Shown: positions 6,993-38,105 of the stretch, in pieces
Numbering within the stretch: the first letter of the stretch is position 1
Layout of the letters: every line of letters begins with the position of its first letter
NCBI GenBank assembly: GCA_015228925.1
Contig: JADGCQ010000028.1
Location: 1-38,235 of the forward strand
From: Magnetococcales bacterium
Lineage (GTDB): Bacteria > Pseudomonadota > Magnetococcia > Magnetococcales > UBA8363
Length of the DNA: 38,235 bases
Direction: 5' to 3'
The notes under the pieces: model-generated
Told to the model about the DNA's origin: nothing
Database searches by the model: none
What the model saw: the letters and a program-made list of their open reading frames with translations, nothing else
Translations under genes and position numbers: made by a program

Positions 6993-7595
6993 ATGGAACT
7001 CGAGGACGCAATTGTCAAACGCCGATCAGTCAAAAAATTTGACCCCGAATTTCATCTGAATGATCCTCAGGTGGAGCGGTTGATTTCCCTAGCGTTATTG
7101 TCTCCGACGGCATTCAATATCCAAAATTGGCGGTTTCTTTGGTTGTCTGATCCCAATCTGCGTCTGGAATTTCGGAAAATTGCCTGGGATCAAGCCCAAG
7201 TGACCGATGCTTCGGCCTTTATCCTCATTGCGGCTGACCTGAAAGCATGGGATCGCGATCCTGAACGGTATTGGCGTAACCAACCCGACTTTGCCAAAAC
7301 CGTGGTGCCTGCCATGGGGCAATATTATCGTGGGAAGGAGAGGATCCAACGCGATGAAGCCATGCGTAGTGCCGGAATAGCCGCCCAGACCCTGATGCTC
7401 GCGGCCAAAGGGATGGGGTTGGATTCTTGTCCCATGACAGGTTTTAATTATGATGCCGCAGGATCGTTAATCAAACTGCCCAAAGATTATTGCCTGACCA
7501 TGGCCGTGGCCGTCGGTCGTGCCCTGGAACCCGCGAACGCACGCGGGGGGCAACTACCCTTGTCGGAAGTGTTTTTCAAAAATCGGTTTCCTTAG
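6993..7595 (+). CDS. Nitroreductase-family flavoprotein
   Basis: A 200-aa FMN-dependent NAD(P)H oxidoreductase of the NfnB/NfsB-like superfamily. MELEDAIVKRRSVKKFDP provides the conserved RRS FMN-phosphate contact, LLSPTAFNIQNWRF is the SPSxxNxQPW-type segment, and the C-terminal MGLDSCPMTGFN matches the family GLDSCPMxGF motif. Length is normal. The frame runs upstream to 6885, but the ATG at 6993 with CGGAG ahead begins family sequence. It likely reduces quinones or nitro compounds in the cytoplasm; the true substrate cannot be told. A strong intrinsic terminator follows, and this is the last conserved gene before the accessory island. Confidence 0.85.
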   Translation: MELEDAIVKRRSVKKFDPEFHLNDPQVERLISLALLSPTAFNIQNWRFLWLSDPNLRLEFRKIAWDQAQVTDASAFILIAADLKAWDRDPERYWRNQPDFAKTVVPAMGQYYRGKERIQRDEAMRSAGIAAQTLMLAAKGMGLDSCPMTGFNYDAAGSLIKLPKDYCLTMAVAVGRALEPANARGGQLPLSEVFFKNRFP

Positions 7596-7634
7596 GGCGT
7601 GCTGACATTCAATAATTTATTGATACCACTCCCT

Positions 7635-7683
7635 AAAAAAAGTTGGTGTTCCAAGATTAAGTCTTGGAACACCAACTTTTTTT
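7635..7683. terminator. Strong intrinsic terminator after nitroreductase
   Basis: AAAAAAAGTTGGTGTTCCAAG pairs with CTTGGAACACCAACTTTTTTT around a 7-nt loop. The stem is long and perfect with a flanking A-run and T-run, so it can stop transcription in both directions. Confidence 0.93.
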
Positions 7684-8028
7684 GGTACAACAAGGACCAA
7701 GTCAATATTGCGTGGGATTTTGTAGGGAATACGTTCAAAGAGGAATATTTGTTGAAATTTTAGGTAAAAAATTTTAGGTTAAATAATAAACCTATAAATT
7801 ACGGCCTTGCCTGATTCATTCTAATTCGTGTAATGTTACCGTGGAGTGTTGGACTTGATGCGTTTGAGTCAGTCCTGCTGAAGTTGATTTTGTTTCAAGC
7901 AAAGGCGGTGGAAGTTGATGATTCCTTTGATTTTACCTTTCTCGAAAGTTGGGAAATGTAGAACCAAAGGTCGTTTTTTTTAATTCGGGTGCCGCAGAGT
8001 GCAATTATTATCTTGAGGAGTTATTACA
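7684..8028. other. AT-rich gap at the left edge of the accessory island
   Basis: No gene is visible. The stretch is AT-rich with an 11-bp direct repeat, AAATTTTAGGT, at 7755-7765 and 7769-7779, and a small inverted repeat AGGTT/AACCT just after it. It changes composition sharply from the nitroreductase gene and may mark the island boundary. No attachment site or integrase was found. Confidence 0.35.
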
Positions 8029-9513: not shown

Positions 9514-10356
9514 TCAGCGGCCACAAGTTAACAACCGGAAAATATTCTGGAGGCGACGGGTGACTGGGCCGGGAGTTCCTGAAGCAACCGGGACGCCATT
9601 AATACTGGTGATGGGGGTGATTTCGCCTGTGGTACCGGTCAGAAATGCTTCCTGGGATTGCTGAAATTCCGGGAGGGTCATGGGGGACATGCGTGTGGGT
9701 ATACCGGATTGAGCGCAAAGCTCAAGCACAGCGGTGCGGGTTATCCCTTCCAGGATAAGATGAGAGGCCGGATGCGTGACGACCATCCCGTCCATTACAG
9801 CCATGACGTTGGTATGACTCCCTTCTGTTACAAAGCCATCGCGCACGAAAACCGCTTCCACGGCACCAACGTCTATAGCTTGTTGATGCGCCAACACATT
9901 CGCGGTGAGTCCGATAGTTTTGACATCACAACGAGCCCAACGGATATCCGGGGTAGTGATGATGGGGACACCGTCTCTGGCATGATGTTGTTTAGAAGCA
10001 AACGGTTTAACCCAAGCCATGCAAGTCAGAGGGGTTGTCGGGGGTGGAAAGCCATGCGTTCGGGGAGCACTACCACGGGTGACTTCCAGATAGAGGATGG
10101 CGTTCTGTCCAGTTAAGCCGTTGACCTTGAGCAGAGAGTCCGCCACCCCGGCGAACTCTGGAAATTCAGTGCGGGCAAACCGCATAAACACAGCACCATG
10201 TGACAGCCGCTTCAAATGGTTATCCATCCTAAACCAAAGTCCGTCATAAGCCCGCGCAACTTCATATAAACCATCCGCAAACAGAAACCCCCGATCTTCA
10301 GGGGACAAAAAGCACGCCTCTGCCGGCATAATTTCACCATTAAAGTAATATAGCAT
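9514..10356 (-). CDS. dat: D-amino-acid aminotransferase
   Basis: A 280-aa class IV (fold-type IV) PLP aminotransferase, closest by eye to Bacillus D-alanine aminotransferase, which moves amino groups between D-amino acids and 2-oxoacids. Landmarks: SPEDRGFLFADGLYEV, the carboxylate-binding VTRGSAPRTHGFP (R and H as in the Bacillus RGTSPRAHQFP), the PLP lysine in WARCDVKTIGL, VTEGSHTNV, and LTGTTGEITPI. All are intact. The ATG at 10356 has GGTGAT upstream; the longer frame begins at a TTG. It is divergent from the asparaginase/racemase operon. If that operon makes D-Asp, this enzyme could convert it to oxaloacetate, but the link is inference. A housekeeping D-Ala/D-Glu role is equally possible. 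Confidence 0.88.
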   Translation of the reverse strand: MLYYFNGEIMPAEACFLSPEDRGFLFADGLYEVARAYDGLWFRMDNHLKRLSHGAVFMRFARTEFPEFAGVADSLLKVNGLTGQNAILYLEVTRGSAPRTHGFPPPTTPLTCMAWVKPFASKQHHARDGVPIITTPDIRWARCDVKTIGLTANVLAHQQAIDVGAVEAVFVRDGFVTEGSHTNVMAVMDGMVVTHPASHLILEGITRTAVLELCAQSGIPTRMSPMTLPEFQQSQEAFLTGTTGEITPITSINGVPVASGTPGPVTRRLQNIFRLLTCGR

Positions 10357-10428
10357 AGTCTTATCACCCAACAATTTCAAAAGATTTTTTCGGTTGACAT
10401 TAGGCGTGATCTATCATATATCAATCAA

Positions 10429-10468
10429 CATGATTTTTTCCAAACATATTCGAGTAGAAAAAATCATG
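10429..10468. promoter_or_regulatory. 12-bp inverted repeat upstream of dat (operator candidate)
   Basis: CATGATTTTTTC at 10429-10440 and GAAAAAATCATG at 10457-10468 form a perfect 12-bp inverted repeat with a 16-bp spacer. On the minus strand the inner arm overlaps the region where the dat promoter should lie (a TTGGAA and a TATATG/TATGAT-like box are near). Centre-to-centre spacing of about 28 bp suits a dimeric DNA-binding protein. The HTH protein of the neighbouring operon is an obvious but unproven candidate. It could also fold as a bidirectional terminator, because the arms carry T and A runs. Confidence 0.5.
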
Positions 10469-10517
10469 AGGATTTTAGGAAGTTTTGTTTAGGTTAATAA
10501 AATCACCTTAAATGGGG

Positions 10518-10643
10518 ATGAATATGATGAACCGCACAATGTTAAACTCCAGTATGAGAAAAATCGGCAGAGCTGTCCTCCCGAAACTCATCGTCATTAT
10601 CGTAAGCTTGTTGGCTGCCTTTTGGCCAGGAACCGCTTGGTAA
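10518..10643 (+). CDS. Possible small membrane/exported peptide (41 aa)
   Basis: A 41-codon ORF from an ATG at 10518; in-frame ATGs at 10524 and 10527 follow, with GGGG just upstream. The C-terminal half has a basic patch followed by one hydrophobic helix (MRKIGRAVLPKLIVIIVSLLAAFW), so it looks like a single-span membrane peptide or a cut-off signal peptide. I cannot assign a family. It lies between dat and the operon in otherwise non-coding DNA. It may be a toxin-like small peptide, a leader, or a gene remnant. Confidence 0.3.
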   Translation: MNMMNRTMLNSSMRKIGRAVLPKLIVIIVSLLAAFWPGTAW

Positions 10644-10829
10644 TGCCGCCCACTAAAGCTTAATGAAGAAAGACTCCCTGGACCCTATAGCCATTGTAGG
10701 CTGTCTTGGCTGCGTCTTCAAGCGCAAAATGAATAATATCAAAGGTCTGAAATTAAACAACTTTCCAGACCGGTCAGTTGAAACGCACTAATACAATTTG
10801 ACTCAAACGTTTCTTCCTGAATCTAACCA

Positions 10830-10838
10830 TGATATAGT
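10830..10838 (+). promoter_or_regulatory. Extended -10 promoter candidate for the four-gene operon
   Basis: TGATATAGT forms an extended -10 box (TGn plus TATAGT, five of six consensus bases). The -35 region at 10810-10815 is poor (TTTCTT), as is usual for extended -10 promoters. The predicted start near 10845 leaves a leader of about 100 nt before the ATG at 10946. A TTGACT at 10798 is too far upstream to pair with this -10. Confidence 0.4.
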
Positions 10839-10945
10839 AGCCCGTGTTGGCGTTGGAAGTTTCCACAATACAACATGAGGTTTGCAGTTTTTTATTTTAT
10901 TCTTTACTGTGTCCACCAGAGATATGTCGAAAAGGGGTAACAGGT

Positions 10946-12289
10946 ATGGATGTCGCCAAAGCTATTCAAAATATTACCGCTGGCATCAAAGGGGTTAACC
11001 AAAAAAGAGTGGCCTTGGAGGCCGGTGTTAATCAGGGGCAGCTTTCCCACTGGCTCCGCAACGGCGTCGATTTTTCTGAGGAAAATATTAGCAAGGTAAT
11101 TAAAACAGTTTTATTTATTGTTGATGAAGAGAATAAAAAGAGTGGAAATTTTGATTATTATGAAAAATATGGAGAAGAGCTTTCGGTCCTCAATTCCTCT
11201 CCAATATTTCAAAAACTATTGTTGGAAGTCATGGATATTGCTCCCGACCAGCCAATTCCGGCGAATAACCCTGCATTGATGGCTCAACCTGGACATGCCT
11301 TAATGACTAAAGAAATCGGCCAGAATCCGCCGATACGCATCGCCATTATCGGGGGAAGAAAAACGGGCAGAAGCAGTGCTCTCCTCAAAGCTAAAGCCGA
11401 CTTGGCAAGAAAAAACTACCACTCCGTCATTTTTGATGGCCGTCTTTTCGCTGCTGAATATGACGGTGACGACGAACCCCTGTTTAGATGGCTGGATACC
11501 ACCGCCCGTAGTCAATTGCCAGGCAGACAGTATAAAATAACATTGCGCAAAATAAGCGACTTTGAACCCTGGGTTAAAAAAAATATTTTGCCCAACCTTC
11601 CAGGCGATAAGCAACTCGTCTTTATGATCGATCACCTGGATGAATTTCCTCCCAAAGCTTTCGCCAGTCTGGCTTTCGGGTTTCATGACCTGTTTGATAA
11701 AGAGGATGAGAACAATCCCGTCAGCCTCCTGGTCTCGTACAATGAAGCCGGGGGTAAACTTTTCGACGTAAACGCGCCAGCCAGTACATTTGCCCGCCAA
11801 CTTCGTACCATTTCCCTGGGCAACACCCAGGATGCGGAGATTGTGCGCTTGTTGGAAACCATGGAGTCCACCAGGGATCATGCCCTGGAATGGAGCGAAT
11901 TCGCCTGGAATCGCTTTTCCGGACATCCCTATCTCACCTTCAACTGGGCACATCTGGTAGCGCGGGGTGAGAAACCAGAAAAGGCATTGGAGACTATGGC
12001 TGTTTTGCTCAAGGAGCGTCTGCTGCTGCCTTTGCTGGAGGATCTGGCACGTTGCAATCCATCTCAGGAAATACTGACTTGGCCGAGTAAGGAAAATGTG
12101 GTGGAACGTATTTTCACTGGAATTTTTGGTCAACAAGAAAATAGCAACCTAGTCCTCAGATCTTATATGTCCCAATGGATGGTGGATAGTGGATTATTCC
12201 GTTGGGAGCAGCAGGCAAACGGGCAACGGGGCATCGTCACCATAACCCCGTGGATCTCGGATAAAATTGACCAGATTCTGAAAAATTAG
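10946..12289 (+). CDS. HTH plus AAA_35-like ATPase (first gene of operon)
   Basis: A 447-aa protein. An N-terminal helix-turn-helix is visible around residues 15-52 (NQKRVALEAGVNQGQLSHWLRNG), with the pattern of Cro/XRE-type DNA binders. A P-loop NTPase domain follows (about 130-445). Walker A is GGRKTGRSS (136-144), with arginine 142 where lysine is expected. Walker B is VFMIDHLDE (225-233). The 'FSGHPYLTF' segment (about 324-332) and a winged-helix-like tail (GLFRWEQQANGQ) parallel the next protein's AAA_35 domain, so the two may be paralogous partners. AAGGGG precedes the ATG at 10946; the frame is open to 10844. It may be regulator and sensor at once. The missing lysine makes ATP hydrolysis doubtful. 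Confidence 0.75.
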   Translation: MDVAKAIQNITAGIKGVNQKRVALEAGVNQGQLSHWLRNGVDFSEENISKVIKTVLFIVDEENKKSGNFDYYEKYGEELSVLNSSPIFQKLLLEVMDIAPDQPIPANNPALMAQPGHALMTKEIGQNPPIRIAIIGGRKTGRSSALLKAKADLARKNYHSVIFDGRLFAAEYDGDDEPLFRWLDTTARSQLPGRQYKITLRKISDFEPWVKKNILPNLPGDKQLVFMIDHLDEFPPKAFASLAFGFHDLFDKEDENNPVSLLVSYNEAGGKLFDVNAPASTFARQLRTISLGNTQDAEIVRLLETMESTRDHALEWSEFAWNRFSGHPYLTFNWAHLVARGEKPEKALETMAVLLKERLLLPLLEDLARCNPSQEILTWPSKENVVERIFTGIFGQQENSNLVLRSYMSQWMVDSGLFRWEQQANGQRGIVTITPWISDKIDQILKN

Positions 12290-12294
12290 CCACC

Positions 12295-14601
12295 ATGGCA
12301 GACTCAATTTTACCGAGTGATCTATCCAACGGTAGGGCGGTAGCCAAGCCTTTTATGCCCGTCAGTGCCATTGATGATCGAAAGGCAGTTTACGTCAGCA
12401 GGGAGGCGGATACGCAATTGTTCGACCTGCTGTCGGAAGGACGACATTGTAATCTGCATGCAGGTCGCCAGAGCGGAAAAACAAGTTTGTTGCGCAAGGT
12501 GAGGCGACAGCTTGAAGCCCTTGGTGATCTCTGCTGCGAAATAAACTGTAGCCTCTATTTTATCCAGTCTCCTTTCGGAGAAGCGGTGAAACATGTGGCG
12601 GCATCTCTACAATCCGAAATTCGTCTCCAACTGTCTGATCACAGATTGCCGACTCTTCGTGTCCGCAAAAGGGAAAATCCCTCAAAGTTTTTCGTGCGGA
12701 TACTGGACCATCTGGCGGCTAATGCGCCAACAGGAAAACGCATCTTTGTGATGTTGGATGAATTGGACAGTTTGACCGTTCACTCCCCAGGCGAATTAGT
12801 AGATTTTTTCCTACACCTGCGGGAATACATCCAGAATCAGGCCTCCCATCAACCTCGTGTGGTGTTGCTCTTCGTGTCGGTATTGACGCTTCAAGAGATG
12901 ATCATGGAATATCATTCGGGTGGAACAGGAATCGCCAGCCTTGCCAATGTTCCTCTGTGTCCATTTGCCAACACGGTCAAGGTGCGGCGGCAGATGGAAG
13001 AACAGGGATTCCCTGGTCAGGCAGACGATACTATCGATAAGCTGTTGACCCGTGTTATCGACCTGACCGGGGGACAACCTTATCTCACTTCCTTGTTCGC
13101 TCGAGAGTTGCAGTGTAGCGATGATCCAGAAACACGGCTTACATTTGTTGCCGACGAGGCTGTGAAAGAGCCACGAAGTTTGGTGACCAATCACCTGAAT
13201 GGGATTGACAAGCAGTTGACTGATATGGGGTTACGCCTGTTTTCCCTGGTACAAATCTATAAGGAAATTCATCAACAGTCGGAGACGGTGCGTGGTAGAA
13301 GAAATACGCAGATCATCGGGACTCTGGAAAATCTTGGATTGATTCGGCGTGAGACAACGGGTCACTATCGGGTCTCAAACCCTATTTATTACGCGCGTCT
13401 TACCCCTGATTGGGCAGAAAACCTCGTAAACCAGTACGAAAAGTTATCTGGATCCCGTTTTAGAACACGTCAAAGGTTGGGTTGTACATTTAACAGAAAG
13501 GTCGCCCTCCTCATGGTCGGTGGTACCATGGGGATGATTACAGAGAAAGGTCAATCGCATTTCATGGGTGCTCAACAGCGTATCGAAAGATTTATCGAGG
13601 AAGAGCTAAACCAAGTGACTCCGGTGCAACCTTTTTTCCTTTGGGAGCTTGATGGGATCAATGTGACCCCTAAAAATTGGCTTAACATCGCCCAATGGAT
13701 TGACCAGCGGCGCGATGAATACGAGGGATTTGTTATTGCCCATGGCACCGACACCCTGGCCTACACCGCCAGCGCAGTGGCTTTCATGTTGGGCCGAGGG
13801 TTGAATCGTCCGGTGGTTTTTACCGGTTCCCAGACTACCATTGATCAACTCCATGGCGATACCCGCCAGAACTTTTTCCGCGCCGTATATGCCGCTGCCA
13901 ATGACCATGCCATACCCGAGGTACAGATTTTTTTCGGCGACCGAGTGATGCGGGCAGTACGGGCAGAAAAGAGTGATGACCGCACTTACGATGGTTTTGA
14001 ATCGCCAGGTTGGCCGCTTCTAGCCCGGGTTACGGAAAACTACCTAGTCAACCAATTCGCCCTGGATACCAAACACCAACAGCGCATCCCGTACCACTTT
14101 CAACCTTATATCGCCGACAGCATCATGCTCATCACCCTGGCACCGGGGATTCAACCCGAACCTTATATGGAGATTATCCAGCTATTACACGACAGAGGGA
14201 AACCCTTGAATGGCATCCTGATCACCACACCAGGTGTAGGCAACATTCCATCTGAGGATCCTTTCAACTTTCGTCTTCTGATTCAAGAAGCCATTTCCTT
14301 AGGAATACCGGTGCTTATTGCCAGCCAAGTACCCATCAACCCCTATACCCAGGATCAGTATGAAATGGCCAGCACACCGGCCAAATATGGGGCCATTCCT
14401 GCCGGTAACCTGACCCTGGCCGCCGCCTTGACCAAATTCGCCTGGGTCATCGGATGTGTACGCCATGAAATGGGTGCCGAGGCAATTGCCGATCCAGAGA
14501 ATAAACTTAAAGAAATCAAAACCCGTATGCGCACCATCTATATCGGCGAGGAAGGCGAATACGGCGAGCAGTTGCAGCGTTCCCACCCCGGAGACAAATA
14601 A
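12295..14601 (+). CDS. AAA_35 ATPase fused to L-asparaginase
   Basis: A 768-aa fusion. Residues ~25-370 form an AAA-like (AAA_35) NTPase: VYVSREADTQLFDLL opening, Walker A GRQSGKTS (57-64), Walker B FVMLDELDS (151-159), the LTGGQPYLT motif (257-265), and a winged-helix end (LIRRETTGHYRVSNPIY). Residues ~400-768 are a type I-like L-asparaginase, which hydrolyses asparagine to aspartate and ammonia. The nucleophile Thr411 (MVGGTMG), the Thr485-Asp486 pair (AHGTDTLAYTASA) and Lys559 are present. The substrate-binding serine of DS is Gly454 (LDGINVTP), so specificity or activity may differ. It starts 5 nt after the upstream stop with no ribosome site, so it is probably translationally coupled. 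The layout suggests an NTP-controlled asparaginase. Confidence 0.87.
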   Translation: MADSILPSDLSNGRAVAKPFMPVSAIDDRKAVYVSREADTQLFDLLSEGRHCNLHAGRQSGKTSLLRKVRRQLEALGDLCCEINCSLYFIQSPFGEAVKHVAASLQSEIRLQLSDHRLPTLRVRKRENPSKFFVRILDHLAANAPTGKRIFVMLDELDSLTVHSPGELVDFFLHLREYIQNQASHQPRVVLLFVSVLTLQEMIMEYHSGGTGIASLANVPLCPFANTVKVRRQMEEQGFPGQADDTIDKLLTRVIDLTGGQPYLTSLFARELQCSDDPETRLTFVADEAVKEPRSLVTNHLNGIDKQLTDMGLRLFSLVQIYKEIHQQSETVRGRRNTQIIGTLENLGLIRRETTGHYRVSNPIYYARLTPDWAENLVNQYEKLSGSRFRTRQRLGCTFNRKVALLMVGGTMGMITEKGQSHFMGAQQRIERFIEEELNQVTPVQPFFLWELDGINVTPKNWLNIAQWIDQRRDEYEGFVIAHGTDTLAYTASAVAFMLGRGLNRPVVFTGSQTTIDQLHGDTRQNFFRAVYAAANDHAIPEVQIFFGDRVMRAVRAEKSDDRTYDGFESPGWPLLARVTENYLVNQFALDTKHQQRIPYHFQPYIADSIMLITLAPGIQPEPYMEIIQLLHDRGKPLNGILITTPGVGNIPSEDPFNFRLLIQEAISLGIPVLIASQVPINPYTQDQYEMASTPAKYGAIPAGNLTLAAALTKFAWVIGCVRHEMGAEAIADPENKLKEIKTRMRTIYIGEEGEYGEQLQRSHPGDK

Positions 14602-14625
14602 CTTACTTTCATAGGGAAATTTGAC

Positions 14626-16404
14626 ATGTCTATTGAACCTGTATCTTTGAGCGCATTGGAACAAGATGACCGCGTTGATGAGTTGGTGCGGAATTTTATG
14701 CAGGCCTTGATGCTGGAGAGCGGTTTTGCCAAGCTTAAGAAAGATCAGCAGGAACAGGTCAGATCGGTGCTGAATTCGGTGATCAAGATGCGTTTTGACA
14801 GCGTTAGTTCTTTTCAGAATGTCGTGATCGGTTTGCTGCGCTCCATTGCCCCTGATCTTGAAAAGTACATCACCATCGCCATCGACAGTGCCCGCGACAT
14901 GCTCAAGGATAATAAAGGGGTGCTAGTGATTTATACCGGTGGAACCATCGGCAGTGCCCCCAAAGATCTCGATGACCCAGACAGCCCGCAGATTGTCAAA
15001 CCCTGGGGTGATCTTAAAAGTGCAGGTCCCATACTGGGACGCCTGGGCTATCCGGTTGATGCCATCGCTTTTGTTGAACCTCTAGACTCCTGCAATGTCG
15101 GGCCGCGCCATTGGTTAACCATGGTGCGCATCATCAAGGAAAACTACGGCAATTACTCTGGTTTTGTCATTTTACACGGCACCGACAGCATGGTATTTAC
15201 CGCCTCGGCACTCTCCTTCATGATCACCGAATTGGACAAACCGATCGTAATCACCGGGTCGCAAATCGCAGGCATCGTCAATCCGCGCAACGATGCCCAC
15301 CAGAACATGATCACCGCCATTATGTTGGCCAACCCCGAAGCTCACAAGCTGGCATTAATTCCAGAGGTGTTCATTTCGTTTGGCAACCTTATCGTGCGGG
15401 GTAATCGCGCCAAAAAAATGAACGTTGTAGAATATCAGGGTTTCAACTCTCCCAATTATCCCCTGTTGGGCAGGGCTGGCGACCACATTGTCATTGAGCG
15501 CAAGCAGATTCGTCGTCCCTCGGAGATTGGAGTGCAGTTTAGCGAACTGATGGACACCAACGTCATCATCGTTGAGGTATTCCCTGGCATGCAAAACTCC
15601 CCGGTATTGTCCAACATTCTGCAAGACGAAAACCTGCGCGGTGTGGTATTGAAGGCCTACGGGGCAGGCAACATCCCTACCGACGCCCCTTTTCTTAAAA
15701 TGTTCACCGACTTTATCCAACGGGGAGGCATCGTGGTATGCACCACCAGTTGTCCAGCAGGTGAGGTGGTGATGGGACTCTATGAAACAAGCCAGATCCT
15801 GGTGGATATCGGCATCATTGGTGGATTTGACATTACCCCTGAGGCAGCCCTGTGCAAATTAATGATGCTGTTGGGTAACTTTGAAGATCTGTCGGAAGCC
15901 AAACGATTGATGCAGCAATCCATTGCCGGTGAACAGCGTCTGAGTCTTGAAACCACGGTTTTGGCTGGCAAAAAGAGCATCCAATCCGGGGGCATGGTTG
16001 AGTTGTCAAGTTCCTTAAACAGCAAGGAAGACAACATAGAACGGATTGAAAAGGTGATGTTAGTTTTCAAGAATGCCAAACTCGATCCAGGCAATGACGC
16101 CCCCGATGCCCGCGCCGCTGTTAAACTGTTTTTGGATGGTGAGACTACTGAGGAAGGTGAAAACTTTCTGGGCAGTTTCTCCCGGCGTCGGGTTCCCAGT
16201 AATGCGTTGATAACGAATAGCACCATTGGTGAAAGTCTTGTAATCGATCTGACGCTCAAAAAACATCACTTTCTTAAAAAGGAAAGCAAAGGGCGTATAA
16301 AAGTCGAACAGAAGGTGCGCATCAACGTCGCGTTGGAGGGGGAAGGTGGGGCTTCGTTCTCCTGGGAGGACGCCGAACTCAAGATTTACACCATGGACCA
16401 ATAA
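14626..16404 (+). CDS. L-asparaginase with extra N- and C-terminal domains
   Basis: A 592-aa protein, far longer than ordinary asparaginases (about 330-350 aa). Residues 1-95 are helical (a possible death-fold-like or oligomerisation module; not identified). Residues ~97-435 are a full type I-like asparaginase: Thr107 (VIYTGGTIG), Asp154-Ser155 (LDSCNVGP), Thr186-Asp187 (LHGTDSMVFTASALSFM) and Lys264 (RGNRAKK), all catalytic positions intact. Residues ~470-592 are a beta-rich tail (KVMLVFKNAKL ... RINVALEGEG) of unknown type. It is 24 nt after the previous gene with AGGGAAA upstream. It probably supplies the competent asparaginase of the pair, and hetero-oligomers with the AAA fusion are likely. 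Unlike GatD, no RNA-binding beta-barrel precedes the enzyme. Confidence 0.88.
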   Translation: MSIEPVSLSALEQDDRVDELVRNFMQALMLESGFAKLKKDQQEQVRSVLNSVIKMRFDSVSSFQNVVIGLLRSIAPDLEKYITIAIDSARDMLKDNKGVLVIYTGGTIGSAPKDLDDPDSPQIVKPWGDLKSAGPILGRLGYPVDAIAFVEPLDSCNVGPRHWLTMVRIIKENYGNYSGFVILHGTDSMVFTASALSFMITELDKPIVITGSQIAGIVNPRNDAHQNMITAIMLANPEAHKLALIPEVFISFGNLIVRGNRAKKMNVVEYQGFNSPNYPLLGRAGDHIVIERKQIRRPSEIGVQFSELMDTNVIIVEVFPGMQNSPVLSNILQDENLRGVVLKAYGAGNIPTDAPFLKMFTDFIQRGGIVVCTTSCPAGEVVMGLYETSQILVDIGIIGGFDITPEAALCKLMMLLGNFEDLSEAKRLMQQSIAGEQRLSLETTVLAGKKSIQSGGMVELSSSLNSKEDNIERIEKVMLVFKNAKLDPGNDAPDARAAVKLFLDGETTEEGENFLGSFSRRRVPSNALITNSTIGESLVIDLTLKKHHFLKKESKGRIKVEQKVRINVALEGEGGASFSWEDAELKIYTMDQ

Positions 16405-16406
16405 CC

Positions 16407-17771
16407 ATGGCAAACGGGTCCGTTCATGGTACGCTGGATATGGAGGATGCTCCACTTCGTGTTCGGCGTACCGTCGCCTTTCTGCGTGAGAATCATGTCT
16501 GGCATGTAATCTCGCGCAACTCCATGTCCACCAGTTGTCAGGATGCCGCCAATCGACGTAATCGCCTAGGTGCCGCTGGGATTCCCCTCCATGATGAAGT
16601 AAAATCGTTGCACATGGTGGGGTATTTCAGCGATGGCATACGTCGTCATGTGTTGTTGCATTGTCGCGCCAATGCGCGGTTCAATCTTGATGCTGCTGCC
16701 GCCGTTTTGCAGACAACACGCCCCCTTGAGCGGCTTTCCGCCGACGAACTCATGAATGAATTCGGTGCTCGATACGGCACGGTCAACCCGTTTTCCGATG
16801 CCGAGGAGTGCATCCAACTCTTTGACGAAAACATGCTGTCCCGCTATACCCCCCCACACACGATGATGACCAACGCCGGCGATCTGACATGGGCAGTCGA
16901 ATTTCGCCCCCAAGAACTCATCACCGCCCTGGGTCGTTACTCATCCAAGGTATCATTGGCGCGTATCACCGGTCGGGAAACTCAGCACCATTCCCTACCA
17001 GTCTTTGGTATCATCACCGGGAATGGCCCCGAAAGCGGAATGACCCTGTGGAAACAACTGAATGGTTTCATCTACGACTCGTTGTCTGAAGTTGACAGGC
17101 TTCATGGTGACTTATCGTATCCCAGAATATGTATTCAATCAATTCCAGAAATGGGTCTTTCCATGGAGTTAGTCCAAAGGGAGGACGATGTTTGGGGCAT
17201 CATTCAGCAAGCTGTGGGCCATTTCATCTCACAGGGAGTAACGCACATTGCTATCGCGTGCAATACGACGCAATATTTTTCTGAACGTATACGAGAGATC
17301 TGCGCACCCCATGGAGTCATTTTCATCTCTTTAGCCGACGTTACTTTGGAATACATCCGCGAAAAAAATATCGATGACATCACGATCATTGGCATACCAA
17401 TCGTCGCTGACCTCGGTCCGTACAGTGCTTATGCTCCATTAAAAGACCTGCATGTCCATCCTGTAAAAGACATCGCGAAATCCCATCTTCAGGAGTTGGG
17501 TTATATGGTCAAACAAATGGGAACCGATGCCCAGGACAGCAAAGCACTCAACAAACTTGTCCATATTATCAATTCCGGCGTCTCAACTCGCCGCGTCATT
17601 ATCGCTCTGACTGAAATCTCGGTTCTGTTGGGACGCTTTCCCAAGAAACGTCGTAACATTGGGGACAAAGAGATCATCGATCCTTTGGAATTGTATAGTC
17701 AGAAACTTGCTCGAATTTTTATTGACGCCCTGCCCAGCACCACTCCTGACACCATCGATAGCTGGGAATAA
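16407..17771 (+). CDS. YbaK-type tRNA deacylase domain fused to Asp/Glu racemase
   Basis: A 454-aa fusion. Residues ~15-132 follow the YbaK/ProX editing fold: LGAAGIPLHDEVKSLHM with Lys66 at the conserved VKTL lysine, ARFNLDAAAAVL, and the ending LSADELMNEFGARYGTVNPF. Such domains deacylate mischarged tRNAs. Residues ~198-445 are an Asp/Glu racemase domain: FGIITGNGPESGMTLWK, then IAIACNTTQYF with Cys285. The second catalytic cysteine (usually in GCTE) is replaced: VIIALTEIS has Leu401. Full two-base racemisation is therefore doubtful; one-way epimerisation, a lyase-like reaction or mere binding are alternatives. It starts 2 nt after the asparaginase stop. The fusion links aspartate chemistry to aminoacyl-tRNA quality control. 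Confidence 0.8.
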   Translation: MANGSVHGTLDMEDAPLRVRRTVAFLRENHVWHVISRNSMSTSCQDAANRRNRLGAAGIPLHDEVKSLHMVGYFSDGIRRHVLLHCRANARFNLDAAAAVLQTTRPLERLSADELMNEFGARYGTVNPFSDAEECIQLFDENMLSRYTPPHTMMTNAGDLTWAVEFRPQELITALGRYSSKVSLARITGRETQHHSLPVFGIITGNGPESGMTLWKQLNGFIYDSLSEVDRLHGDLSYPRICIQSIPEMGLSMELVQREDDVWGIIQQAVGHFISQGVTHIAIACNTTQYFSERIREICAPHGVIFISLADVTLEYIREKNIDDITIIGIPIVADLGPYSAYAPLKDLHVHPVKDIAKSHLQELGYMVKQMGTDAQDSKALNKLVHIINSGVSTRRVIIALTEISVLLGRFPKKRRNIGDKEIIDPLELYSQKLARIFIDALPSTTPDTIDSWE

Positions 17772-18310: not shown

Positions 18311-18565
18311 TTATCGGCACAGGAGCGTTTTGAAGTTGCGGTCCAGCGGATAGACCCAGATGTCTTTGATTGGAACGCTTTGGATACCACAAGGGCCGAG
18401 TTTCCATCGGCCCTTGGTCTGTCCGAGGTGGTTCCAGTTGACGGCGTGATAGCAAGTACCTCGGAAACGTGGTTTTTGGACGAAGGTTTTTAGCAATACC
18501 GGGCGCATGTTGTACACGGACTGCCATTGGCCGGGAAGTCCTCTGGCCACTTTGGCCAGCATCAT
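18311..18565 (-). pseudogene. C-terminal remnant of DUF4338 (DruA/transposase-associated) protein
   Basis: About 84 codons match the C-terminus of DUF4338 proteins, as I recall the family: ARGLPGQWQSVY, RPVLLKTFV, RFRGTCYHAVNWNHLGQTKGR, and the end VKDIWVYPLDRNFKTLLCR. DUF4338 proteins are transposase-like and include Druantia DruA. The N-terminal two thirds are absent; upstream the frame breaks near KEAS and unrelated sequence begins. It is a fragment without function. It supports the view that 7600-18600 is a mobile, recombining island. Confidence 0.65.
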
Positions 18566-28745: not shown

Positions 28746-29297
28746 TCAGGATTTCAGTAAGCTAATAATTCCTTTAATAAATACATTAAAACTATGTGAA
28801 GTATTCCCTTCTCGTGTCATAACCTTGCCCATAGCTCTGGATCCAGCAATTTTTTGATACGATGGAGCCAGTCGCGTCAGTTCTTGAACAGGGTTACCCA
28901 GCTTGTCAGGGTTTCGAAATTTTAGATTCGTTTGCTGTTTGGCTGCCCCTCGGGCACTCAAGGCTTTTTCTACCGCCGCAAGATCTCCCAGATACCACGA
29001 CTCCAATTCACGACAGGCGATGCGGATCAGGGTTTGTGGGTGGCCCCCTTCGCGACTTAGATTTCGTAACTTTTCTTTGACTTCGCAGCAGTTTCCAGAA
29101 TCCTTGTCTCGAAGTACAACGAAGCGACTATTGGGTTGTTGCCAATTTCGTAATTTTCGCGGTAATTGTTTTTCCAGATCCTGTTTTCCCTCGAACACGA
29201 TAAAAAGAGGCGTTTCAATATCGGGTAAGAACCGTGGTAGCAGCTCCTGCAATAACGCTTTGGCGGAGGCCTCTTCAAGAAAGAATACCAGTTGCAT
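28746..29297 (-). CDS. DUF4276 TOPRIM-like nuclease (PARIS AriB-like)
   Basis: A 183-aa protein of the DUF4276 family. The opening LVFFLEEASAKALLQELLP carries the acidic pair Glu8-Glu9 of a TOPRIM-type fold, FVVLRDKDSGNC supplies Asp64 and Asp66, and RIACRELESWYLGDL is the family's conserved mid segment. TOPRIM-like proteins cut nucleic acids; in the PARIS defence system the DUF4276 protein AriB is the effector that the AAA protein AriA releases. It begins 1 nt after the ATPase stop (TGA-T-ATG), so translation is coupled. It is shorter than PARIS AriB, so a related but distinct system is possible. Confidence 0.75.
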   Translation of the reverse strand: MQLVFFLEEASAKALLQELLPRFLPDIETPLFIVFEGKQDLEKQLPRKLRNWQQPNSRFVVLRDKDSGNCCEVKEKLRNLSREGGHPQTLIRIACRELESWYLGDLAAVEKALSARGAAKQQTNLKFRNPDKLGNPVQELTRLAPSYQKIAGSRAMGKVMTREGNTSHSFNVFIKGIISLLKS

Positions 29298-29298
29298 A

Positions 29299-30483
29299 TC
29301 AGGGTTCGATCCCTTTAAAAAATCCCTGCTTCCATAAATATCCCATTTTATCACCATCGTTCATATACGCCACGAGTTGCTGATCATCCTCGGCGCGGTG
29401 AACTTGGGTGTAGCCATCCTGTTTGACGAACCAAAAAACCTCATTGATGGCACATGCATTGAGAAAATCTGGCGAATGGGTAGAGACGAACACTTGACCA
29501 CCCTGTTTGGCATAATCGCGAAACTCTTCCGCTAATTCTTCTAAAAGGGATGGATAAAGCTGGTTTTCTGGCTCTTCGACGCACAACAATGGGTGCGGGC
29601 GCGGATCAAAAAGCAAAATCAAATAGGCCAACATTTTGATGGTACCATCGGAAACATAACGGGCTAGAAAGGGGTCTTCAAACGCTTGATCTTGGAAGCG
29701 CAACAAGACGCGGCCTTCTTCGGTAGTTTTGGAATCCACCCGGGAAATTCCGGGAATCCTTTTAGATAACTTTTCAAGAATCTTATCAAATACCTTACGG
29801 TGGCGTGTATAAAGATACTGAATGACCAGTGAAAGATTTTCACCTTCCGTAGAAAGATGTTCCGCATGTCCTGCATCCTGTTCAGGGCGGGCGCGATTGA
29901 TATGGAAGTCGGAAACATGCCAGTTTTCGATCAAATCCCCCAATTCTTTGACCGCTGGAAAACGCTCAAACTGCGCTAACCCCTTGATGGCCAATATATC
30001 TGGAGACTTCAGTTGCTGATTTTCTCTGTTGAGGCTCTGAACGTTCGTGACCTGTTCCAACTCATTGGTGACGGCATAACCGCTTCCCCTAGAAAAATCA
30101 AGAAAATGCCAGGGCTGGCCGTGGCTACCCCGACGGTATTTCAGGATTTCTCGGCTGACGACGGGGTCTCCATTGAGTTCACCGATGTTGAGAGCGTAAG
30201 TTACCAGGGGACCACCCGTTTTGATTCGGAACTTGAGTTCGATTTCGATCTCGCCATCCACGGCCCGACTGCGGACCTCCTGGAAACCCCGGTTGCCACC
30301 CTGCTTGATCAAGGCTGTATGAATATTGCTTGAGAACGCCTCTCGCAGGAAAGCAAACACGTTGAATAGTGTCGATTTTCCGGTACCATTGGCACCCACC
30401 AGGATACAGAAACGGGGAATATTCTTGAGTTCAACGTCGCGGAAACATTTAAAGTTTTTCAGACGTATTGATTCGATCTGCAT
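29299..30483 (-). CDS. SMC/Rad50-like AAA ATPase (PARIS AriA-like)
   Basis: A 394-aa ABC-type (AAA_15/AAA_21) ATPase. It starts MQIESIRLKNFKCFRDVEL, typical of OLD and RecF-like proteins. Walker A is GANGTGKST (30-38), the signature-like loop is YVSDGTIKML (277-285), Walker B is LLCVEEPENQLYP (299-311), and the switch His is in VFVSTHSPDFL (331-341). All are intact. Such ATPases often pair with a nuclease as phage-defence modules (OLD, PARIS, Gabija-like). The next gene is DUF4276, the exact PARIS combination. It lies 19 nt downstream of rlmN on the same strand, so it may share a transcript with a housekeeping gene. Confidence 0.85.
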   Translation of the reverse strand: MQIESIRLKNFKCFRDVELKNIPRFCILVGANGTGKSTLFNVFAFLREAFSSNIHTALIKQGGNRGFQEVRSRAVDGEIEIELKFRIKTGGPLVTYALNIGELNGDPVVSREILKYRRGSHGQPWHFLDFSRGSGYAVTNELEQVTNVQSLNRENQQLKSPDILAIKGLAQFERFPAVKELGDLIENWHVSDFHINRARPEQDAGHAEHLSTEGENLSLVIQYLYTRHRKVFDKILEKLSKRIPGISRVDSKTTEEGRVLLRFQDQAFEDPFLARYVSDGTIKMLAYLILLFDPRPHPLLCVEEPENQLYPSLLEELAEEFRDYAKQGGQVFVSTHSPDFLNACAINEVFWFVKQDGYTQVHRAEDDQQLVAYMNDGDKMGYLWKQGFFKGIEP

Positions 30484-35447: not shown

Positions 35448-35582
35448 TTTTCTCAGGGTTTTGTTGGGGTATCGAATGCTTTTTGCACGAAACTTGCTTC
35501 TTTTCTGGGCGGTTTGACGTTGGGGAAAAAGTTCCCTGAAAGCCTGTTCATCACATCCATTCTTTGCGATTTCCGGCACCCC

Positions 35583-37202
35583 ATGATCTGTTCAAGACCC
35601 ATCGGTCGTTTTCGGCGTGTTTACCTCTGGCTCTTTTGTTTCGTCGGTGTGTTCGGCTCGGCGGTCCCCGGTTTTGCTGACAAATCGGGGTTGTGTGGTG
35701 TTGCCCGGGAAATTGCCACCCAGGGGGTTGCCCGTTTCGATACCCAACATAACCTGGGCTTGGCGGCGATTCGGCGCGCCTATGATTTATGCGGCTCCGA
35801 TCCGGGTATCGCCTTTAACATGGGTCTCGCTTGGTATCTCGATAAACAACTTCCGAAAGCCCGGGAAATTTGGGAAACCCTTTATAAGACGACCCGTGAT
35901 TTTCCCGTCACCGACCCTTTGGCTTTGAAGGTTCTCACCAATTTGGCATGGCTCCGGTTTGAGATGGGTGATGATGAGGAGGCCCATTTGTTGGCATTTG
36001 CGGGACTTCGACAACATCCGGGTCATTTGGCTTTGGCCCATACCAAGTTTATGGCGTTGATGCGGATGGCCCGTTATCTTGAAGCCTATGACTGGCTGAC
36101 CCGCGACAAACTCCCCGGCAGCCTCCCCTTGGAGTGGAAGAATCAGACGGCGGAATACATGGTGGAAAATCTTTGGCGTGAGTTTCGCAGCGGTAAACAT
36201 TTGTCATCCATCAAGAATGCGGTCGATTTTTATATCAAGGAATACCCGGAGGAACCCATCTTTATTCGGGCTAAGGAGCAACTGTTGGTGGCGGAAGTGG
36301 ATCCCAAAGGGGAGATTCCGCCGATTGTGGCACTGCCCGATAGTTCCTGGCCCAAGAGTGGCAATATCGATGATCGGGTTTTGGAGTTGGATCCCCTGCT
36401 GGCGTCGCAGCCGACGTTGGAACCGTGGAAAAAGCGCGAAGATGCCTTTGCGGTTGTGGTGGGTATTGCCCGTTATCGCAACATCGAGTCGCGGCATTAT
36501 GGAGACCGTGATGCGGCGAACATGGCTTCCGTGTTGACACGCCGAGGGATTTTCTTGGCCGACCCGGAGCATGTGCGGGTACGCTTGGATGGTCAGGCGA
36601 CGCAGGAGACGATTCTGCAAGATATCGAATGGTTGGCTAGTAAGGGGAGGATTCATCCCAATGCCGTTTTATTGTTTTATTTTTCCGGGTTGGGTGCCCC
36701 TTGGATTGCCAACGATCCCCCGGAATTTGTGGATGGATTGTTGTTACCGGTCCAAGTGGATGGGTTAAAAATCACCCCCCAGACCGCCATTTCTTTAAAT
36801 TTTTTGAAAGGATTGCTGTCGGATCTTCCCGACCGGGAAATCATTGTGATTTTGGATACCTGTTTCCATGGTCAGGGACATTGCGGCACCCGTCTTCCGG
36901 GCAAGCGTGTGGTGCCTACCCAAGGATTTTTCCAGGATACCCATGGGTGGGCACTCGCCTCGGTGCAAGGGGATGCGGGTGTCTTGGATGCGGCACGCCA
37001 GGGGGCTTTTACCTATCATTTGATCAAGGGATTTCTGGGACAGGCGGATGGGGCGGATGGTTTGGAGAGGGATGGTTGGGTCAGTCTGGGGGAGGCTTTT
37101 GGGTTGGCGCAGACCGCGTTGCGGACTCACAAACCGGCAGTGGATGGGTTTTTGACGGCTCCGGCCACGGTTCGCCTGACGCGCACGCGCGGGGAGGAAT
37201 AG
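35583..37202 (+). CDS. Secreted caspase-like protein with altered catalytic dyad
   Basis: A 539-aa protein from ATG 35583, chosen because a signal peptide begins there (RRVYLWLFCFVGVFGSAVPGFA). Residues ~40-250 are helical, TPR-like (LGLAAIRRAYDLC, GLAWYLDKQLPKAREIWETLY). Residues ~300-500 show the peptidase C14 (caspase) fold: FAVVVGIARYRNIESRHYGDRDAANM, then VLLFYFSGLG, then IIVILDTCFHG. The nucleophile Cys427 is present, but the histidine of SGHG is Leu370, so proteolysis is unlikely by the normal mechanism. It is probably periplasmic and a pseudo-enzyme. Its TAG touches the ATG of the next gene with no gap. Confidence 0.75.
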   Translation: MICSRPIGRFRRVYLWLFCFVGVFGSAVPGFADKSGLCGVAREIATQGVARFDTQHNLGLAAIRRAYDLCGSDPGIAFNMGLAWYLDKQLPKAREIWETLYKTTRDFPVTDPLALKVLTNLAWLRFEMGDDEEAHLLAFAGLRQHPGHLALAHTKFMALMRMARYLEAYDWLTRDKLPGSLPLEWKNQTAEYMVENLWREFRSGKHLSSIKNAVDFYIKEYPEEPIFIRAKEQLLVAEVDPKGEIPPIVALPDSSWPKSGNIDDRVLELDPLLASQPTLEPWKKREDAFAVVVGIARYRNIESRHYGDRDAANMASVLTRRGIFLADPEHVRVRLDGQATQETILQDIEWLASKGRIHPNAVLLFYFSGLGAPWIANDPPEFVDGLLLPVQVDGLKITPQTAISLNFLKGLLSDLPDREIIVILDTCFHGQGHCGTRLPGKRVVPTQGFFQDTHGWALASVQGDAGVLDAARQGAFTYHLIKGFLGQADGADGLERDGWVSLGEAFGLAQTALRTHKPAVDGFLTAPATVRLTRTRGEE

Positions 37203-38105
37203 ATGAAGGGGTTTATGTTCCGCTTGGGCCTGGGGATGATGGTGGGATGGTGGAGTTTTATCCCTGCCCAGGGAGAGGCTTATCTGATCAACGAATGGGA
37301 ACGTTTGGCGTTGGCGGGGGGAGAGCGACCGCTGGATGAAGAACCGGTACCGGGGAAAAACTGGACCGATGCGTTGACGGGGATTGAATTTGTATGGATT
37401 GCGGGTGGATGTTTCCAGATGGGGTCACCGCCGTGGAAGGATGGTCGTGAACATGATGAGGGTCCGTTGCACCAAGTGTGTTTGGGGGATTACTGGCTGG
37501 CGCAAAGGGAGGTGACGCAGGGGCAGTGGCAAGCCATCATGCGGATGAATCCTTCGGCGTTTCCGAAGGGTGATGCGTATCCGTTGGAGCGGGTCACTTG
37601 GTTGGATGCGGAGGTTATCGCAGCCAATTTGAATGAACGCTATAGGGGCAAGGCCCGTATCCGTTTGCCGACTGAGGCGGAATGGGAATATGCCTGCCGT
37701 GAGCGGGGGGATGATATCGTTTATGCGGGGCGGGATGATGTGCATCGGGTTTCTTGGAACCGGGAGAATAGTTTGGGATCGACGCAGATGACCGGGACGC
37801 GACAACCCAACCGTTTGGGTTTGTTGGACATGAGTGGTAATGTGTGGGAATGGACCCAGGATAGTTATCGCCCCGATGCGTATTCCCGGCATAACGAGAA
37901 CAACCCGGGGGGGGTGGATGAGGGTTTTTTCAAGGTGATACGGGGTGGGGGATGGAAGGATGCGTCTGGGGCGTTGCGGTGTGCCAATCGTGGTTTTGAG
38001 CGGTATTTAAGCAAACGGCATGATCTTGGATTTCGTTTGGCGGCGGTGGTGGATGTGGCATCGGTGGATGGAAAACGTCCCCCTTTGTTTGAGATTCCCT
38101 TTTAA
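37203..38105 (+). CDS. SUMF1/FGE-like domain protein
   Basis: A 300-aa exported protein with a signal-like N-terminus (MKGFMFRLGLGMMVGWWSFIPAQGEA). The rest is a formylglycine-generating-enzyme-like domain: GIEFVWIAGGCFQMGSPPW, VCLGDYWLAQREVTQGQWQAI, RIRLPTEAEWEYACR, LLDMSGNVWEWTQDSY, VIRGGGWKDASGALRCANRGF and DLGFRLA. The cysteine pair used by true FGE is not seen, so it is more likely a binding or scaffold domain. It starts directly after the pseudo-caspase stop, so the two probably form a functional pair. Confidence 0.88.
   Translation: MKGFMFRLGLGMMVGWWSFIPAQGEAYLINEWERLALAGGERPLDEEPVPGKNWTDALTGIEFVWIAGGCFQMGSPPWKDGREHDEGPLHQVCLGDYWLAQREVTQGQWQAIMRMNPSAFPKGDAYPLERVTWLDAEVIAANLNERYRGKARIRLPTEAEWEYACRERGDDIVYAGRDDVHRVSWNRENSLGSTQMTGTRQPNRLGLLDMSGNVWEWTQDSYRPDAYSRHNENNPGGVDEGFFKVIRGGGWKDASGALRCANRGFERYLSKRHDLGFRLAAVVDVASVDGKRPPLFEIPF

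Follow-up and report, generated by a model that had tools for sequence, protein, structure and literature searches.

A conserved operon of ATPases, asparaginases and a tRNA-editing/racemase-fold fusion protein in Magnetococcales and other bacteria

The operon and its genes

We analysed a stretch of 38,235 nucleotides from a Magnetococcales bacterium (contig JADGCQ010000028.1; the window, by which we mean this whole stretch) and a four-gene operon within it that encodes ATPase, asparaginase, tRNA-editing and racemase-fold domains. A preliminary description of this DNA, made from the sequence alone, had listed the four genes. An open reading frame check of the window found them to be real, with the coordinates and spacings given there, and a Pfam search upheld the domain assignments for all four. 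The open reading frames are co-directional and separated by 5, 24 and 2 nt (gene 1-2, 2-3 and 3-4). Gene 1 (10946-12289, + strand) encodes an N-terminal helix-turn-helix (HTH) domain (about 10988-11104) and a P-loop ATPase, and is the presumed sensor or regulator. Gene 2 (12295-14601, +) encodes an AAA_35 ATPase (about 12367-13359) fused to an asparaginase (about 13498-14457). Gene 3 (14626-16404, +) encodes a predicted helical N-terminus (about 14626-14910), a type I asparaginase (about 14920-15912) and a C-terminal domain (about 16033-16401). Gene 4 (16407-17771, +) encodes an INS/YbaK-type aminoacyl-tRNA editing domain (about 16494-16946) fused to a domain with the fold of Asp/Glu racemases (about 17001-17735).

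The four-gene set turned out to be incomplete. A divergent fifth gene, overlooked earlier, lies at 9514-10380 on the minus strand and encodes a class IV aminotransferase of the D-amino-acid transaminase type (PF01063, 2e-40). Its nearest solved relatives are D-amino-acid and D-alanine aminotransferase structures (5e-54), and it keeps the RGxxPRxHxFP and RCDxK motifs. The best NCBIfam model was TIGR01121 (D-amino-acid transaminase), at 247 bits, under the cut-off of 277. The intergenic region between the divergent genes (10381-10945; 39% GC) is the presumed control region for both transcripts. A common operator was looked for in the divergent intergenic regions, and no shared k-mer or perfect palindrome was found.

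The editing and racemase-fold fusion

Gene 4 gave a good structure model (pLDDT 82.6), and its two halves were assigned separately. The editing half matched the Pfam tRNA_edit family above the cut-off (E 1.3e-6), and in Foldseek comparisons it aligned with 1dbx, 2z0k, 2dxa and 1wdv at TM-scores of 0.82-0.88. Two features define the INS superfamily: a conserved lysine and a GXXXP loop (PMC11286415). Both are present in gene 4 and, in an alignment of 12 relatives, both are conserved. The diagnostic lysine (Lys66, codon at 16602-16604, +) is invariant in 12/12 and aligns with the lysine of the ProRS INS domain. The loop (Gly124-Pro128, GTVNP; 16776-16790, +), which aligns with the GXXXP loop of the same domain, has its G, N and P invariant in all 12. 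By modelled fold, lysine and loop, this half of gene 4 is a member of the editing superfamily, and it is predicted to deacylate aminoacyl-tRNA.

The racemase half matched the Pfam Asp_Glu_race family below the cut-off (E 4.9e-4), and the family is supported by the fold match (Foldseek TM-score of about 0.8 to 3s7z and 5hra). The nearest curated model, the cysteate racemase CuyB, gave 56 bits against a cut-off of 190. Gene 4 has the fold of Asp/Glu racemases but not both of their catalytic cysteines. The first is present in the window copy (Cys285, codon at 17259-17261, +) and is Cys in 10 of the 12 relatives, with Asp in loci L027 and L030. The position of the second holds leucine in all 12 (Leu401, 17607-17609, +; ALTE replacing CTE) and Cys in the catabolic racemase of Ensifer. 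The racemase assignment of the preliminary description was therefore right as to fold and wrong as to the second catalytic cysteine. Its proposal that the operon produces D-aspartate is unsupported, because the second cysteine is lost in every relative; we rejected this role, the first cysteine being missing as well in 2/12.

A relative of the racemase half on a plasmid of Ensifer adhaerens retains both cysteines and sits with an asparaginase and an aspartase. On this basis, the racemase half of gene 4 plausibly descends from a racemase that served asparagine catabolism.

The asparaginases and the ATPases

The asparaginase domains of genes 2 and 3 gave strong Pfam matches (E 5.2e-46 and 4e-45), and the catalytic positions of type I asparaginases (the Thr of GGT, the Thr-Asp of HGT-D and the downstream Lys) are intact in both. 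These positions are kept across the relatives of the two genes except in type-B loci, described below, which have HGTN, and in the gene 2 copy of L029, which has SGTD. The TIGR00519 scores of genes 2 and 3 (246 and 181 bits) were below the curated cut-off of 260.5. In a phylogenetic tree the two genes fall in separate asparaginase clades, and the type-B asparaginases (L022-L025 and L031), with HGTN replacing HGTD, form a third. The N- and C-terminal extensions of gene 3 match no Pfam family. The C-terminal one is conserved; a poor structure model (pLDDT 55) suggests, at low confidence, that it may be beta-rich. A GatD-like amidotransferase was also considered for genes 2 and 3 and set aside: the GatD score was lower than that of type I asparaginase, and there was no linked GatE.

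The preliminary description had joined NTPase modules to asparaginases, and the AAA_35-asparaginase fusion was confirmed in gene 2. Its ATPase domain matched AAA_35 (PF14516) at E 2.3e-8, with 33.7 bits against a cut-off of 27, and has both a Walker A (GRQSGKTS) and a Walker B (FVMLDELD) motif. Gene 1 is less well defined. Its Pfam matches to HTH_3 (E 0.007) and AAA_35 (E 0.012; 14.9 bits against PF14516) were weak, and in the window copy Arg replaces the P-loop Lys (GGRKTGRSS), a residue retained in the L011 and L012 copies. Gene 1, whose sequence is poorly conserved overall, has orthologues at these two loci, and remote relatives were found at the equivalent position in L027, L029 and L030 (hhalign profile comparison, 97.6%).

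Distribution and conservation

The full four-gene order was found in six places: the window, L011 and L012 (Magnetococcales, of different families), L027 and L030 (Acidobacteriota) and L029 (Bacteroidota). Gaps between genes in the conserved operons ranged from -65 to +47 nt. The occurrence of the same operon order in distant bacteria indicates that the association is not due to chance. The preliminary description had named rare linkage elsewhere as grounds for giving up its proposal, and linkage is what we found: the asparaginase gene lies directly upstream of the YbaK-racemase gene in 10 of the 11 loci, that is, in all of them but L028, which is cut at a contig end.

The gene 4 fusion was present in 6 of the 48 genomes of the order. 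Outside it, single metagenome-assembled genomes carry the fusion in Acidobacteriota (Blastocatellia, Solibacteraceae and another), Candidatus Aminicenantes, Bacteroidota and Sulfurovum. One more such genome is titled Deltaproteobacteria; its assignment is uncertain, and its phylum sample overlaps that of the Blastocatellia genome. The fusion is rare: of the genomes sampled, 1 of 347 in the L027 phylum and 1 of 396 in the L029 phylum had it, in each case the seed genome itself. When gene 2 was searched for in the phylum of L031, whose sample overlaps that of L027, only genome G365 was added, already known from the latter.

The transaminase gene was present in 3 of the 48 genomes of the order, exactly those with the four-gene operon, and was always adjacent and divergent. 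If the genomes are treated as independent, this co-occurrence would be expected by chance once in 17,296. The complete operons outside Magnetococcales are without it, save L029, where a decayed fragment of a transaminase-type gene follows gene 4.

Carriage on mobile elements was considered and rejected. No copies were found in viral contigs or phages, and the plasmid collection contained one racemase-only relative, on the one Ensifer adhaerens plasmid. That plasmid locus (L041, 8971-12094) consists of a racemase-asparaginase-aspartase operon near an ABC transporter of the branched-chain amino-acid type, and is a candidate D-asparagine utilisation locus. At L027, a further gene of the Asp/Glu-racemase family (13398-14357, -) lies about 2 kb from the four-gene operon.

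Exchange of partners in related loci

The asparaginase/gene 4 pair is found with different partners in different loci. The type-B loci of Magnetococcales have the order EamA permease, cyclase/FGE-sulfatase, asparaginase, gene 4 and a TIR-like gene (TIR_2). The Sulfurovum locus has asparaginase, gene 4, an unknown gene, EamA and GNAT, and at L024 EamA and GNAT are co-directional with the pair. The order at L031 is KAP/FGE-sulfatase, asparaginase, gene 4 and, directly after gene 4, a D-amino-acid-oxidase-like gene. The gene 4 tree places types A and B of Magnetococcales together, and a single type-A clade was rejected (approximately unbiased test, p 1.7e-4). The Magnetococcales asparaginases of the two types fall in separate clades, and a single clade was rejected (p 3e-50). 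Taken together, the two trees support exchange of modules.

One genome has the asparaginases with another kind of partner. In G365 (Acidobacteriota; L106, 7253-13677) an unknown gene of 359 aa is followed by a gene 3-type asparaginase that shares the C-terminal domain of gene 3, a gene 2-type asparaginase and a RelA_SpoT gene (1.8e-17), and a TIR gene lies convergently downstream. No gene 4 was found in this genome. From the position of RelA/SpoT after the asparaginase pair, the tRNA-level partner appears, in this one genome, to be exchangeable for an enzyme of the alarmone or tRNA-modifying type.

Genes of the kinds found in conflict systems lie near several relatives: TIR, TIR-SLOG, toxin-antitoxin, restriction-modification and Schlafen AlbA_2 genes. 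Near the loci outside Magnetococcales these include PIN with Phd, DUF6036 with HTH, an Eco57I methylase, TIR-SLOG and SLFN AlbA_2.

In genomes without the type-B cassette, the TrkA and HDAC genes that flank it elsewhere are on separate contigs. Pieces of a second, broken HDAC-like gene lie between a type-B cassette and the intact copy (G023:C45:20731-21061), which suggests a rearrangement when the cassette was inserted.

Interpretation

We tentatively favour the view that the operon is a sensor-gated asparagine-starvation switch, although we give it less than an even chance. In this scheme the ATPases would read a signal and release the two asparaginases, which would hydrolyse the free asparagine pool. 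The INS domain would strip an aminoacyl-tRNA whose amino acid is probably Asn, Asp or something closely related, and the racemase-fold domain, which has lost the second catalytic cysteine, might bind the amino acid or carry out one-base chemistry. With asparagine lost and the tRNA stripped, the cognate tRNA would stay uncharged and translation would stop, as it does when a cell is starved of an amino acid. The scheme draws on the gene content, conservation, folds, motifs and partner exchange described above, and in particular on the AAA_35 fusion, the exchange of sensor modules, the RelA/SpoT partner, the conflict-type neighbours and the conserved asparaginase and INS sites. That the same core is wired to cyclase/FGE with TIR, to KAP/FGE and to RelA/SpoT fits a switch rather than a nutrient pathway. 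The wider proposal, that it represents a new type of conflict or stress switch acting by self-inflicted, amino-acid-specific starvation, with NTPase-gated asparaginases and an INS deacylase exchangeable for RelA/SpoT, is a possibility to which we give somewhat less weight. Anti-phage abortive infection, suggested in the preliminary description, may be its purpose: against it stand the lack of PADLOC matches, the failure to find copies in phages or viral contigs and the largely housekeeping flanks, and for it the conflict-type genes near the relatives and the asparaginase pair beside RelA/SpoT in G365. The asparagine depletion suggested there is likewise possible, since the catalytic residues are intact.

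Several observations count against a starvation switch. What the members do, what triggers them and whether stress arrest or abortive infection follows are all matters of prediction. HGTN in place of HGTD in the type-B asparaginases suggests that their substrate may not be free asparagine. The RelA/SpoT linkage comes from one genome, the immediate flanks of the operon in Magnetococcales are mostly housekeeping genes, and in the PADLOC comparison of neighbours the control regions were rich in defence genes as well. In addition, clearance of an amino acid suits the transaminase, D-amino-acid oxidase, EamA and GNAT partners at least as well.

Such clearance, as a protection and proofreading system against a toxic, D-configured or otherwise non-standard Asp/Asn-like amino acid, is the closest competitor and a possible explanation in its own right. 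In its free state the compound would be hydrolysed by the asparaginases; the transaminase or oxidase would remove the D-form, EamA would export it, the INS domain would deacylate mischarged tRNA, and the ATPases would sense the compound. This would account for a D-amino-acid transaminase in exactly those 3 of 48 genomes that hold the operon, for the oxidase-like gene directly after gene 4 in L031, for EamA at the type-B loci and, together with GNAT, beside the pair in L024, and for the presence of an INS domain, since INS domains are editing domains. The design also has a precedent in the canavanyl-tRNA deacylase that adjoins a canavanine degradation operon (PMC10018355). Left unexplained are the RelA/SpoT, TIR, KAP/FGE and cyclase/FGE partners and the fusion of an AAA_35 ATPase to one of the two asparaginases. 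Ordinary catabolism of asparagine or D-asparagine under HTH control seems unlikely. The canonical protein nearest to the racemase domain in the plasmid collection, from Ensifer adhaerens, does sit in a racemase-asparaginase-aspartase operon beside an ABC transporter, but in gene 4 the second racemase cysteine is gone and an INS domain has been added, the duplicate asparaginase is fused to an ATPase, and signalling modules are exchanged. Moreover, there was no aspartase family match among the four genes and the transaminase, and no uptake system in the operon. Even less can be said for supply or balancing of D-Asp or D-Glu for the cell envelope, which we regard as very improbable: the adjacent D-amino-acid transaminase and the racemase fold would suit it, but the second racemase cysteine is missing, none of the loci has a linked envelope gene, and, apart from the decayed piece in L029, the transaminase is absent from the other complete operons.

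If the asparagine-starvation switch is correct, translation would be halted in a new way, with one amino acid and its tRNA ester removed together under sensor control and the tRNA step exchangeable for alarmone synthesis. If clearance is correct, the operon would represent a new class of amino-acid detoxification that is tied to tRNA proofreading and includes a racemase-fold protein minus the racemase site. On either reading the INS/racemase-fold fusion lends itself readily to biochemical work, and with the five-gene cluster of Magnetococcales the question can be tested.

Comparison to known systems

The claim that this is an undescribed but conserved operon held up: the same order occurs in other phyla, no PADLOC-DB model matched the four operon proteins (best E 0.012), and no description was found in searches of the open-access literature. 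Those searches brought up nothing relevant that links asparaginase to conflict systems, to YbaK, to a racemase or to abortive infection. In composition the operon is categorically new, in that no described system was found with an asparaginase/editing-racemase core; its function is predicted.

Parts of the operon do resemble known proteins and systems. Gene 4 is like the INS trans-editing enzymes (YbaK/ProX, ProXp-ala and the ProRS INS domain) in fold, conserved Lys and GXXXP loop, but carries a fused racemase-fold domain and shares its operon with asparaginases. It is like the racemases of Asp/Glu that are independent of pyridoxal phosphate in fold (TM 0.8) and, in most members, in the first Cys, but the second catalytic Cys is Leu in all members. 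An asparaginase beside a racemase-family gene is shared with the asparagine catabolic operon of Ensifer; compared with that operon and the Bacillus ans operon, there is no aspartase or transporter here, and an INS domain, an AAA_35 fusion and a second asparaginase are added. The canavanyl-tRNA deacylase (PMC10018355) is likewise a tRNA-editing protein encoded beside amino-acid-degrading enzymes, but its editing fold (B3/B4) is unrelated and it is without ATPase control. The NTP-dependent conflict systems with FGS and TIR effectors (Kaur et al., PMC7159879, PMC8195603) likewise combine NTPase modules with varied effectors, and FGE (FGS), cyclase and TIR partners occur in the loci related to ours. 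In contrast to those systems, no vWA-MoxR core, EAD or Death-like domain was found in the operon, and no vWA or MoxR components were present in the operon or the scanned neighbours. The words asparaginase and racemase are absent from the two papers.

Genomic surroundings

The preliminary description placed the operon in an AT-richer island with a DUF4338 remnant. The intergenic edges are indeed AT-rich (39-42% GC), but the operon itself differs only marginally from the window (49.4% versus 50.7% GC). The remnant is real (18311-18565, -; 84 aa; PF14236, a family now named DruA, E 3.5e-9); it lies just outside the operon and is not a working part of it. In genomes of the same genus the right flank is common up to 18660, where synteny breaks close to the operon, and the far side is different in each genome. 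The divergence beyond 18660 points to a variable site, at which no clean insertion boundary can be drawn.

A classical defence island in the window was considered and set aside, as the genes immediately flanking the operon are mostly housekeeping. About 11 kb from the operon, an AAA_21 ATPase gene (putative AbiEii type) lies beside a DUF4276 gene (28746-30483, -), with lower GC at third codon positions than the neighbours; this is likely an inserted defence-type pair. Right after dnaE, a gene for a caspase-domain protein with TPR is followed by an FGE-sulfatase gene (35514-38105, +), a combination known from conflict systems. A repeat of roughly 50 bp at about 7590-7685 has many copies elsewhere in the genome and in genomes of the same genus.

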